Origin: an uncultured Siphonobacter sp.
Lineage (GTDB): Bacteria; Bacteroidota; Bacteroidia; Cytophagales; Spirosomataceae
Length of the DNA stretch: 64,000 nt
Direction: 5' to 3'
Assembly: GCA_913775095.1 (NCBI GenBank)
Contig: CAJYIW010000018.1
Span: 1 to 64,000 of the forward strand
Every line of letters starts with the position of its first letter. Positions within the stretch are counted from its first letter, which is position 1. The translations under genes and the position numbers were made by a program. Below the pieces are notes generated by a model. The model worked only from the letters and a program-made list of their open reading frames with translations. It was not told the DNA's origin and did not search any database. Positions 30,202 to 35,655 of the stretch are shown piece by piece.

Positions 30202-30975
30202 CTAATTAATCTGAAAAATTCTCATAAACTCATCTTTATACTGCCGGCCCATGGGTATTAGAAATTGCTCGGCCATTATTTCCTTTTCATTAAAACTCTT
30301 TATTTTCCGAATATTCACGGCGTACGAACGATGTACCCGCATCAGCTTTTCAATTCCTAATCGATGCAGGGTCAGATTCAGTGTTAGGCGAATGGAATAT
30401 TTTTTATCGTTGGTGACAATAGTCGTGTACGTATTATCTGCTTCCAGATACACAATGTCAGCCATTTCAATTCTTACGAACTGGTAATTGTGTTTAATAA
30501 ATATGGAATTATCAATCTTCAGAATTACCTCACGAGTCTGACTATCCTTATCGGTAATTCGATTCTGATCTTTAATAAAGCCGGCACTTTCCCGGGCGGT
30601 AAAATTCTGAATGGCCAGTTCAATGGAAATGTTCAGACTGGCATTATTAACAGGCTTGAAAAGATAGGCAGCCGGATAGGTAAGTTTTGCCCGCTCACGG
30701 GTTTCTTTATCGGCCAGAGCTGTTACATAAATAACAGGAACGACCCGAAAATTATGCAGTTGATTAATCGTTTCGATTCCATCCCACTCCCCTTTGATAT
30801 TAATGTCACACAATACTAAATCGACCTGATTTTGCTGAAATATTTCTAAAGCTCTTTTCCCATTGTTTGCAATACCTACGACGTAATATCCTTCCGCTTC
30901 CAGGGTATCACATAAGTCCATAGCCAGCACAGCTTCGTCTTCTATGATTAATACTCGCACTCGGTTTTCTTGCAT
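30202..30975 (-). CDS. LytTR-type response regulator
   Basis: 257 residues from the ATG at 30975 (a TTG at 30996 would add seven). The receiver covers 5-120: VLIIEDEAVLAMDL, the phosphorylation Asp in LVLCDINIKGEWDGIETI, VIYVTAL and the Lys in AYLFKPVNN. The LytTR DNA-binding domain occupies about 160-257, with IVYLEADNTYTTI, SIRLTLNLTLHRLGIEKLMRVHRSYAVNIRKI. Such regulators bind paired direct repeats near promoters of surface, biofilm or metabolite genes. First gene of an operon with the TPR kinase. Confidence 0.92.
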   Translation of the reverse strand: MQENRVRVLIIEDEAVLAMDLCDTLEAEGYYVVGIANNGKRALEIFQQNQVDLVLCDINIKGEWDGIETINQLHNFRVVPVIYVTALADKETRERAKLTYPAAYLFKPVNNASLNISIELAIQNFTARESAGFIKDQNRITDKDSQTREVILKIDNSIFIKHNYQFVRIEMADIVYLEADNTYTTIVTNDKKYSIRLTLNLTLHRLGIEKLMRVHRSYAVNIRKIKSFNEKEIMAEQFLIPMGRQYKDEFMRIFQIN

Positions 30976-31120
30976 TAGATCAAAGTTTGCACTCAATTTA
31001 ATAAAGCTTTTTAGTATTAAATAACCTGAATTTATTTAAGGAATAAATACTCATATAGTTATTATTAATTAAATTAATAAGTATTATTCATCATTTAAAT
31101 AATCACTAACTACCAAAAAA

Positions 31121-31152
31121 TAATAAACGGGACTAATTAGCCCCGTTTATTA
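31121..31152 (-). terminator. Terminator of the small zinc-ribbon gene
   Basis: An 11-bp stem (31121-31131 with 31142-31152) around a ten-base loop. On the minus strand it is followed by TTATTTTTT. It lies 27 bases past the stop at 31180. Confidence 0.75.
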
Positions 31153-31179
31153 GTATGATCTCCGTATAAAAATGTTCGT

Positions 31180-31338
31180 TTATGTTCGGATAAAAAACCT
31201 CCTGCATTTAAGGCACAGAAACCATTTAATAGGGAGAAAGAACAACATAGTTCGAACAACCAGCGGGCGGCGGCGACGCTCCACCTCTGTAGCCTTGCAA
31301 TAAGGACAACCTTTTGTTTTTGAGCGTGTTGCTGCCAT
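31180..31338 (-). CDS. Small zinc-ribbon protein (52 residues)
   Basis: An ATG at 31338 opens a frame of 52 codons ending in TAA. The protein starts MAATRSKTKGCPYC and ends FLCLKCRRFFIRT, so it has two C-x2-C knuckles (Cys11, Cys14, Cys42, Cys45) 27 residues apart, with a basic RRRR patch and a hydrophobic middle. This is the arrangement of a zinc ribbon, and small proteins of similar form (C-P-x-C ... C-x-x-C-x-R/K-x-F) are widespread in Bacteroidota. It has a terminator-like hairpin directly downstream, which supports that it is transcribed. Function is unknown; nucleic-acid or protein binding are both possible. It is isolated in an AT-rich stretch. Confidence 0.7.
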   Translation of the reverse strand: MAATRSKTKGCPYCKATEVERRRRPLVVRTMLFFLPIKWFLCLKCRRFFIRT

Positions 31339-32301
31339 CGTACGTAAGCAGGTTAGTTCGGTGAATTCTGCGGGCTTCCTTGCCTGTTCATCTGGCGATC
31401 AGGGCCTTTGAATGTATGGGTATTCCTGGCGGTTTACTATTGATGTCCTTGAGAAAGAGAAAACTTTTTAGTCGTTTGCCCTCTTGTAAAAAGTCTCTCT
31501 TTCTCTCAGACAATCATGGGTTAATCCAAACCGGATTTAAGATAAATTGCGTTACGTTTCTTAACCGAGCTCTGAATTATTTAAGAAAAGCTGCAACCTC
31601 TTATGGCGGGTAATTCGGTTTCTTTAAGCGATACAAACATACTTCAAAAAGGATTCTTTGTTTTACAAATGTAGGTAGACTAAGCGTATGAGATAGTCAA
31701 TGACTCTATTTGGTTAGTGAATAAAAAATCGGGAGTTCAGAATTTTATTTTAGATGCCTGAATTTGTGCACAAGTACAGATGGGCATTTTTCGAATTCTA
31801 TAATAAATTCCAGTTTACCTAGAAAAAAGTACTGATAATCAGTATTATACACATACTACAATAATTTAAATAAAAAAATAACAAATGGTAATTAATTTTA
31901 TTTTAACACAAATTTAAATTCTGTGATTATTCCTTAATATACTTCTTAAATCGATTATTAAGTTAACTTATTATTCAGATTTTATAGCGAATATTAAACG
32001 CCAGAAATCAGCTTATTATTTTATCTTATATGTGGACTCAATAAGAACCTTAACTAATGTTATGATCAGCGAATTGTCTTAAGCAAAAAGATTTAACAGG
32101 TTTACCTATACTATATTTAATCCTACTCCAGTACACTGTCGTACGCAATGGCGAATATTGTTTTTTTTATATTTTCGTAAAATTTATAAAGATTCCTGGC
32201 TACTCCGGTCTTTATAAATAATGCTCTCCCCTATGGGGTAATCGCCTGAGATCAGGGTCTTAGAATTATTAACCTCGCATAGGATTTAACATTACAAACT
32301 C
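31339..32301. other. Long AT-rich gene-free stretch with a hairpin
   Basis: About 960 bases between the zinc-ribbon start and the DUF6807 gene. The part from 31700 is markedly richer in A and T than the rest of the window. Frames here (for instance a TTG-started one at 31380-31613) do not look like protein. Two minus-strand TAnnTTTG matches (31634-31641, 31666-31673) could start a leader for the zinc-ribbon gene. A plus-strand TATTTTCG near 32172 could start the DUF6807 gene. A non-coding RNA is possible but not shown. Confidence 0.45.
31451..31507. repeat. Long imperfect inverted repeat
   Basis: The arms 31451-31470 (GAGAAAGAGA then AAACTTTTTA) and 31487-31507 (TAAAAAGTCTC then TCTTTCTCTC) pair over some 18 bases with one bulge and a 16-base loop. 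It is not followed by a T run on either strand. It lies in the gene-free region, upstream of the zinc-ribbon gene. Confidence 0.5.
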
Positions 32302-33339
32302 ATGACTTCTATTGCTAAACTATTTTTATGCGGCTCAGCCCTTTTTCTCAGTGCCCAGGCCATGGGACAGAAGTTAATCGAGCTGAAAAGCGATGAAAAA
32401 GCTAAAAAAGTTGACGTTCTCGTCGAAGGAAAACCTTTTACTAGTTATTTCTATCCGGGAGAACAAGTACTCAAAAAGGCCGTTCTCTACCCGGTTTATT
32501 CTCCCCAGGGAAATATTGTTACCCGTGGATGGCCCATTGATCCAAGACCCGGTGAGCGGGTTGATCACCCTCACCACGTGGGCATCTGGTTTAATTACGA
32601 GGATGTAAATGGCTACGACTACTGGAATAATTCCAATACCCCGCCCAACCCCAAAGCGAAATACGGTACGATCCGCCATACGGGTATTAAGGCGAAAAAA
32701 GATGGCAAACGGGCTGAATTAACCGTTACGGCCGACTGGATAGAAGATAACGGAAAAGGCCGCAAAGTGCTGGATGAACGCACCACGTACTTCTTTACGG
32801 CTACCGACAAGCAACGAATCATTGACCGGGTAACGGTTTTGAAAGCTACGGAAGATGCTCACTTCAAGGATGTGAAGGACGGTATGTTTGCCATTCGGGT
32901 AGCTCGTCAGCTAGAGTTACCTTCCACCAAGGCGGAGAAATACACGGACGCCAATGGCGTAGAAACGTCCGTTCCGAAACTGGACAACACGGGCGTTACG
33001 GGTAACTACCGCTCCAGCGAAGGAGTGGAAGGGGCGAAAGTGTGGAGCACGCGGGGCCGCTGGATGAATTTGACTGGTAAAATCGGAAAAGAAACCGTTT
33101 CTATTGCCATGATTGATCACCCGAAAAACGTTAACTATCCAACCTTCTGGCACGCCCGCGACTACGGATTGTTTGCCTTGAATCCGCTCGGCGAAAAAGT
33201 CTTCACGGAAGGAAAGAAAGAGCTTAATTATCAGCTCAAAAAAGGACAGTCTGTGGTGTTTCGTTACCGGGTAGTGATTACTTCGGGTGGAGCCACTGAT
33301 GCGGAGCTGAATAAGCTGGCGGATGCTTTCGCTAAATAA
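32302..33339 (+). CDS. DUF6807/PmoA-family exported protein
   Basis: 345 residues with a signal peptide (ends about residue 22, AMGQ). The remainder is a beta-rich protein of the DUF6807 group, annotated in databases as PmoA after a distant similarity to methane oxygenase; it is not expected to oxidise methane. The family motif GERVDHPHHVGIWFNYEDVNG (about 88-108, with HPHH) is strongly conserved in character and could bind a metal or sugar. Further blocks are DGMFAIRVARQLELP, TRGRWMNLTGKIG and HARDYGLFALNPLG. These proteins commonly sit near sugar-degradation genes in Bacteroidota, suggesting a role in polysaccharide use. Here it is alone. Confidence 0.82.
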   Translation: MTSIAKLFLCGSALFLSAQAMGQKLIELKSDEKAKKVDVLVEGKPFTSYFYPGEQVLKKAVLYPVYSPQGNIVTRGWPIDPRPGERVDHPHHVGIWFNYEDVNGYDYWNNSNTPPNPKAKYGTIRHTGIKAKKDGKRAELTVTADWIEDNGKGRKVLDERTTYFFTATDKQRIIDRVTVLKATEDAHFKDVKDGMFAIRVARQLELPSTKAEKYTDANGVETSVPKLDNTGVTGNYRSSEGVEGAKVWSTRGRWMNLTGKIGKETVSIAMIDHPKNVNYPTFWHARDYGLFALNPLGEKVFTEGKKELNYQLKKGQSVVFRYRVVITSGGATDAELNKLADAFAK

Positions 33340-34485: not shown

Positions 34486-35655
34486 TTACACCAATACCCG
34501 CTCCCGTACCGCATTTTTCTGACGGTAATAAAACACCATCGACATCAGGAAGCCCGTAAAGGCCAGCATAGCTCCTACCCACTGAGGCGAAGTGTAGCCC
34601 AGGCCGGCGGCGATGGGTAACCCGCCCAGGTATGCTCCCAGAGCATTTCCCATATTGAAACCAGCCTGACTCACGGATGAAGCCAGCATTTCTGAGCCAT
34701 TGGAGGCCCGAATCATTAAAATCTGAATGGGTGCTCCGAGCGTGAAGGAAATAGCTCCGGTCACGAAGGTCATGATCAATAACGGCGTTGGAAACGGAGC
34801 GACGAAAGATACAATGGTCAGCGAAGCCGCCATTAATAACAAAAACAGAGCCGTAGCCTTGATCGGTGAGAGCCGATCCGCGGTGAGGCCGGCAATGATG
34901 TTCCCTACGGCCATGCCTACCCCTGCCAATACCAGAATCCAGGTAATCTGATCACTCCTGAAGCCTCCAACTTCCGTCAGTAACGGAGCGATGTAGCTGA
35001 ACCACGCGAACAATCCCCCCGTACCAATGGCTGTAATGCCCAGGATTAACCAGGGTTCTACCCGGGTAAAAATTTTCAGATCCTTGATAATATTTGAATC
35101 CCCCACGGCGGGCAAAGCGGGCAGCAATTGTTTAATACTGAACATGGTCAACAAGCCAACACCCGCAATGATGAGGAACGTAATCCGCCAGCTCATGGTG
35201 TGCCCGATGTAGGTTCCCAGCGGCACTCCGATGATATTGGCAATGGTCAAACCCGCAAACATCACCGAGATGGCCTGAGCTTCTTTGCCCGGCGTAGCCA
35301 GCCGACTCGCTACTACGGCTCCAACGCCAAAGAAAGCTCCGTGCGGAAGACCCGACAGTAAGCGAGTCAGCATCATCAACTGGTAGTTCGGAGCGAAAGA
35401 AGATAAGGCATTACAGAAAGTAAACAGGGCCATTAAGCCCAGCAGGATTTTCTTTGGCGGGTAATTGCCCGCAATGGCTACCAGCAGGGGGGCTCCCAGC
35501 ACGACCCCAAGGGCATAAGCCGAAATCAGGTGACCCGCCTCGGGAATGGAAATGTGTAAATCGCGGGCAATATCCGGCAAAATACCCATCATGACGAATT
35601 CAGTCATGCCGATGCCGAATCCCCCGACGGTTAAAGAAAGCAAACTTTTTTTCAT
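34486..35655 (-). CDS. MFS transporter, AraJ/DHA1 type
   Basis: 389 residues, 12 membrane helices. It begins LSLTVGGFGIGMTEFVMMGILPDIARDL, as in the DHA1 efflux group that includes the E. coli arabinose-polymer exporter AraJ and sugar-efflux and chloramphenicol transporters. Motif C-like GVPLGTYIGHTMSWRITF is present, and the second half repeats the pattern (GNIIAGLTADRL). It is most likely a proton-driven exporter of unknown substrate. The DoxX gene stops 68 bases upstream on the same strand, so the two may share a transcript. Confidence 0.88.
   Translation of the reverse strand: MKKSLLSLTVGGFGIGMTEFVMMGILPDIARDLHISIPEAGHLISAYALGVVLGAPLLVAIAGNYPPKKILLGLMALFTFCNALSSFAPNYQLMMLTRLLSGLPHGAFFGVGAVVASRLATPGKEAQAISVMFAGLTIANIIGVPLGTYIGHTMSWRITFLIIAGVGLLTMFSIKQLLPALPAVGDSNIIKDLKIFTRVEPWLILGITAIGTGGLFAWFSYIAPLLTEVGGFRSDQITWILVLAGVGMAVGNIIAGLTADRLSPIKATALFLLLMAASLTIVSFVAPFPTPLLIMTFVTGAISFTLGAPIQILMIRASNGSEMLASSVSQAGFNMGNALGAYLGGLPIAAGLGYTSPQWVGAMLAFTGFLMSMVFYYRQKNAVRERVLV

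Follow-up and report, generated by a model that had tools for sequence, protein, structure and literature searches.

On the minus strand of the window (the whole stretch of 64,000 nucleotides analysed here), a conserved island that is predicted to fold into a two-domain RNA, with compensatory change in five species, is followed by a 52-codon gene which, judging by its substitutions, is genuine and under purifying selection, and then by a terminator; this order is constant in all six genus genomes examined. We read the three, with moderate confidence, as a single minus-strand unit of about 500 nt in which the structured RNA would control the amount of a zinc-ribbon microprotein. The features of the locus are:

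30202-30996, minus strand: LytTR response regulator, the downstream neighbour, syntenic in six genomes
31121-31152, minus strand: terminator hairpin and T-run, present after the orthologue in six genomes
31180-31338, minus strand: microprotein ORF, CxxC-x27-CxxC, with an ATG start, 52 codons, homologues and codon-position bias
31431-31624, minus strand: putative structured RNA element, conserved and matched by covariance model R1 with 204.7 bits (the window sequence is among the model's five)
31443-31513, minus strand: RNA domain 2, a predicted long hairpin with compensatory changes
31472-31485, minus strand: apical loop region of 14 nt, AAGAGGGCAAACGA, the same in all of the six genomes except G004, where it is changed
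31515-31534, minus strand: near-invariant linker CCGGUUUGnAUUAACCyAUG, predicted to be unpaired in its 3' part
31530-31622, minus strand: RNA domain 1, a predicted long imperfect hairpin with AAACCG/CGGUUU closing and a conserved bubble around CCGCCA
31634-31641, minus strand: candidate -7 box TATGTTTG; all six orthologues have TAnnYTTG in this position
31666-31673, minus strand: second candidate -7 box TACATTTG, within the conserved TTTACCTACATTT block

A preliminary description of this DNA had proposed a short minus-strand gene with two CxxC pairs, and its family, its synteny and the purifying selection acting on it bear this out. The 52-residue microprotein (MAATRSKTKGCPYCKATEVERRRRPLVVRTMLFFLPIKWFLCLKCRRFFIRT, the translation of 31180-31338 on the minus strand) has cysteines at residues 11, 14, 42 and 45, forming CPYC at 11-14 and CLKC at 42-45, and between the two pairs carries the basic run and FF-P-[KR]-[WY] segment typical of its family. 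A protein search of 59 genomes at E<=0.01 returned 46 matches, spread over 16 of them, with five or six in each of six Siphonobacter genomes, that of the window included, and both CxxC pairs lie on one open frame at 45 of the 46 loci, the exception being L016. Selection was assessed on a 120-nt core of the ORF in six orthologues: across all 15 pairs pS was 0.46-0.96 and pN 0.03-0.30, and the 591 differences were distributed as 160, 78 and 353 over codon positions 1, 2 and 3. The high synonymous change, the low pN and the third-position excess together indicate purifying selection, and the lack of homologues and the rates near one that had been named as grounds for abandoning the gene are clearly not what was found. 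A spurious ORF, as might be suspected from the short length and from the fact that no curated family matches above its cut-off, is contradicted by the family, the synteny and the codon-position bias and refuted by pN/pS, and its probability is negligible.

The claim that the gene has its own terminator 27 bases past the stop codon also held. A 14-pair stem begins at that distance and is followed by TTTTTT, the stretch folds better than 200 of 200 shuffles (z -4.5), and a hairpin with a T-run is kept after the orthologue in six of six genomes with differing stems (GGGGC/GUCCC, GGAGC/GCUCC, GGGAC/GUCCC). The case rests on this conservation because a simple terminator scan is by itself near chance (1 found vs 0.8 expected, the one site in 30900-32320 lying after the ORF); across the genus, a simple scan places a terminator behind 20 of the 33 copies.

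In all five Siphonobacter congeners the orthologue has the LytTR regulator and its kinase beside it in the arrangement of the window, and at the G004 locus the regulator and kinase side is kept while the opposite flank is different. In the window the divergent neighbour (32302-33339) encodes a DUF6807 protein, which shows 88-95% identity in those congeners, four of the five, that have it next to the locus. The neighbouring transporter (34486-35655) corresponds to two adjacent ORFs in G002 (L049:3628-4796), which may reflect a frameshift or an assembly error.

To call the gene isolated, as had been done, misses both its paralogues elsewhere in the genome and the conserved element directly upstream. 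The family alignment and profile comprise 28 loci chosen from the 46, after removal of 18 that are membrane-anchored, are distant or lack cysteines, and in all 28 of these selected members the four cysteines are among eight invariant columns. Searching with this 28-member profile gave six family copies in the window genome, the sixth of them a membrane-anchored frame on contig C5, and phylum-wide matches in 5 of 118 genomes, the window genome counted among them. At the level of sequence, the family is zinc-ribbon-like, has undergone a genus-level expansion and is claimed by none of the curated models searched. No shared context was found for the own-genome paralogues: at four of the other five copies the flanking genes bear no relation to one another (NamZ/YceI, CorA, BNR/tubulin-like and haem oxygenase; one of seven tested was without a match). 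The protein tree, which is based on 43 columns and poorly resolved, groups L001-L005 with L017 (support 87/99) and leaves the syntenic G004 copy, L006, outside.

Several further observations concern the relatives of the microprotein. G002 has another close copy, L017 (contig C25, near 35258), which the tree places among the syntenic orthologues; TTCACATACATTT is present upstream of it and matches to the linker and loop are absent, and it is possibly a duplicate having lost the RNA. In the loci L038-L040, L042, L044-L046 and L097 (own-genome contig C5) a crude test places one membrane-like segment at the N-terminus, ahead of the double-CxxC motif, and several membrane-anchored cousins share a similar tail, such as TPDNEPVKM. 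Seven motif copies occur in a single genome of the same class and another order (G276, family f23), which suggests an independent expansion outside the order. The sole plasmid match is a weak relative (H1, NZ_CP089541.1:88773-88901, E 0.1) on a plasmid of Spirosoma oryzicola, at a place where the incomplete PLSDB table records no gene. A viral or phage origin was considered and set aside, relatives having been found neither in viral contigs nor in phages.

The DNA upstream of the gene had been described as AT-rich and non-coding, but it is not featureless: it includes a conserved island at about 31440-31730, made up of candidate TAnnTTTG promoter boxes and a structured element. In a conservation profile of the 1.3-kb intergenic region, given as invariant bases per 30-base block in five species, the invariant fraction is 0.23-0.70 across the upstream stretch 31462-31731, 0.53-0.57 in the ORF core (31192-31311) and 0.50 at 31102-31131; elsewhere it is at most 0.40, and the block with that value (32212-32241) lies near the divergent gene. 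The upstream stretch opens with the TTTACCTACATTT block and the TAnnYTTG box, and in all six genomes no frame on either strand stays open across the RNA element. Five sequences yield a consensus fold with two domains and 53 pairs; 13 of these pairs show double-sided change (reached by 2 of 500 shuffles), and the paired cells amount to 89.9%, as against 83.2% in shuffled alignments (reached by 0 of 500) and 39-56% in slid ones. In this compensatory-change test, 0-2 of 500 shuffles did as well on four of the five measures; on the remaining one, the number of further pair types, 125 of 500 did, so that it does not exceed shuffles and counts against the fold. The position of the island between divergent genes would also fit conservation as DNA, that is, as regulatory sites for the DUF6807 gene or the response regulator, but the compensatory changes fall at paired positions, the minus strand of the window element folds better against shuffles than the plus strand (z -3.55 vs -2.26) and the promoter boxes point in the same direction, which makes this reading very improbable.

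The element is less well preserved in G004, which R1 matches weakly, its 9.8 bits (E 0.22) being fewer than some chance matches scored in that search; its promoter blocks are kept, as is the greater part of the linker, its loop is changed, and its first domain, folded alone, has a CCGGU/ACCGG closing vs AAACCG/CGGUUU in the others. The linker differs by one base in G002 and by more in G004. With R1 at E<=0.1 and stricter filters, which lose weak matches, 5 of 79 genomes were matched, exactly the model's five, each with a single match in the whole genome; G004, although a Siphonobacter genome, is among the 74 that were not matched. In 41 family genomes, searched at E<=1 with stricter filters, two more matches appeared, at E 0.72 and 0.86, and were counted as chance. 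The linker and loop pattern was found in 6 of 150 family genomes, all six being Siphonobacter, the genomes from which the pattern was drawn.

Before the 40 other family loci L007-L046, a set that left out the C5 copy, neither the linker nor the 5' motif was found with 2-3 mismatches allowed; the upstream regions, of which that of L028 has just 106 nt, gave scattered loop-like or promoter-like matches only. In other genera, the DNA preceding the response regulator showed neither a zinc-ribbon frame nor the element at any of 13 loci in 8 genomes. A linker-like match with two mismatches at L092 lies inside a 495-codon open frame and was read as chance. As far as these searches reach, the RNA element appears solely in Siphonobacter, before the window gene and not before the paralogues examined. 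Rfam 15 gave no match in the window at gathering score, and a permissive Rfam search of 31330-31800 gave eight, all far below their gathering scores, the best by E-value (0.048) being to a eukaryotic miRNA family on the opposite strand. A non-exhaustive literature search, judged by titles and abstract openings, returned nothing on this protein or RNA.

The consensus TAnnTTTG has been reported for the -7 element in Bacteroides and was also seen in Flavobacterium johnsoniae (PMC7366714). In all six orthologues a TAnnYTTG box stands 323-344 nt before the first CxxC, and in one of the six such a box lies between the RNA and the ORF. The two qualifying candidate boxes in the window are 32 bases apart, and in the second, the one within the TTTACCTACATTT block, the last base differs in four of six genomes.

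In the mechanism that we propose, transcription would start from a Bacteroidota-type candidate promoter near 31634-31673, the first 190 nt or so of the transcript would fold into the conserved two-domain RNA, and a poorly conserved spacer of about 105 nt would lead to the 52-codon gene, whose product is a basic microprotein with two CxxC pairs, the transcript ending at its own terminator at 31121. RNA and gene would then be carried on one transcript, the microprotein, present in about six copies of its kind per genome, would be a small regulator that binds nucleic acid or a partner, and the folded RNA may set the amount of protein through binding of a protein or an RNA at the linker and loop. 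No device hiding the start codon is visible, the spacer being poorly conserved and variable in length, and we argue from this poor conservation that the RNA does not mask the start codon directly.

A single transcription unit is the simplest reading because of the order, the spacing, the shared strand, the one promoter region and the one terminator. Two observations count against it, namely that the distance from loop to ATG varies from 147 to 166 nt across six genomes, with a poorly conserved spacer, and that the examined paralogues manage without such an RNA. Both would be accommodated by two separate genes, an independent trans-acting sRNA (about 31440-31630) and a microprotein gene with its own weak promoter, as would the candidate promoter boxes belonging to the RNA and the conserved exposed loop and linker, which suit an RNA acting in trans. 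However, no terminator between RNA and ORF was found in the window (scan of 30900-32320), a conserved promoter box before the ORF is absent (one of six), and the linkage of RNA and ORF holds in six of six genomes, although this might also follow from the block being syntenic as a whole; we consider two genes conceivable but doubtful. A dual-function transcript, in which the genus-specific RNA with its conserved exposed loop and linker acts in trans or as a receptor, and in which the microprotein encoded in the 3' half binds the RNA or its targets and so controls the unit it comes from, appears unlikely.

Paired CxxC motifs with basic and aromatic neighbours form a zinc-ribbon-like pattern. The window microprotein falls below every Pfam and NCBIfam cut-off, scoring 14.5 bits with Zn_ribbon_8 (PF09723; cut-off 34.4) and 12.3 bits with Zn_ribbon_PaaD (PF23451; cut-off 27), and is not among the matches to NCBIfam TIGR02605 (FmdB family). 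Among the 28 family members, matches at E<=1 were obtained by 25 with Zn_ribbon_PaaD (best 4.2e-5), by 21 with Zn_ribbon_8 (best 5.1e-4) and by 17 with TIGR02605. A search of PHROGs with the window protein gave three weak matches only (best E 0.16). A profile search of solved structures gave 42 matches up to E 10, the best (3.8e-6) covering 17 residues of human ZBTB17 fingers, and homology with ZBTB17 was rejected as a short CxxC-type coincidence. The AlphaFold2 model, of low confidence and built on a four-sequence alignment (pLDDT 57, pTM 0.30), is helical, with a helix at 36-51, and not a ribbon. The zinc-ribbon label of the preliminary description is a putative one, supported by the four invariant cysteines and the sub-threshold Pfam zinc-ribbon matches but not by the AlphaFold2 helices at pLDDT 57. 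We infer that the four cysteines would bind one zinc ion.

The alternative is a short membrane-associated peptide in which the cysteines are not a zinc site but, for example, redox cysteines beside a hydrophobic helix. It could draw on the hydrophobic stretch at residues 26-44, on the AlphaFold2 helix at 36-51 (its confidence too low to count) and on the N-terminal membrane-like segment that precedes the motif in 7 of the 33 genus copies by a crude hydrophobic-run test, and likewise in the C5 copy. The stretch is, however, broken by R29 and K38, the CxxC pattern is zinc-ribbon-like, and most members match Zn_ribbon_PaaD and Zn_ribbon_8 at E<=1 as given above, so that we regard a membrane peptide as improbable and retain the zinc-ribbon-like protein.

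Routine annotation tends to overlook small zinc-ribbon proteins as well as structured RNAs, and here one locus combines both kinds, each with comparative support. The family expansion offers a natural set for studying the roles of bacterial zinc-ribbon microproteins, and the RNA is a candidate control element that sets the window copy apart from its paralogues.

Among known systems, 6S RNA has the shape of a long interrupted hairpin and in that respect, as in being a structured RNA of about 190 nt, resembles the Siphonobacter element, from which it differs in having one domain and not two. RF00013 and RF01685 were without a match in the window genome, and 6S RNA was rejected, by a test that is weak (RF00013 was found in 5 of 14 controls and RF01685 in 0 of 14). 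Zn_ribbon_8, Zn_ribbon_PaaD and TIGR02605 are likewise double-cysteine zinc ribbons with weak similarity around the first CxxC, whereas the basic run and the FF-P-[KR]-[WY] segment mark the microprotein family described here. With 52 aa the window protein lies within the limit of fewer than 70 residues of the zinc-ribbon microprotein class, and its cysteines, basic run and aromatics would suit a zinc-binding micro-regulator akin to the zinc-finger micro-proteins of haloarchaea, in which functional studies of such proteins have been carried out (PMC10716476, PMC6562870). HVO_0758, HVO_2753 and other C(P)XCG proteins are zinc-finger micro-proteins of Haloferax volcanii; HVO_0758 has several positive residues and bound zinc, and most deletion mutants showed phenotypes (PMC10716476, PMC6562870). 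As described there, they too have fewer than 70 residues, two paired-cysteine motifs and many members per genome, a descriptive likeness, and they differ in being archaeal and in their C(P)XCG motifs. The abstracts on the Haloferax volcanii micro-proteins nowhere mention a structured leader, whereas the Siphonobacter gene has a putative structured RNA upstream.
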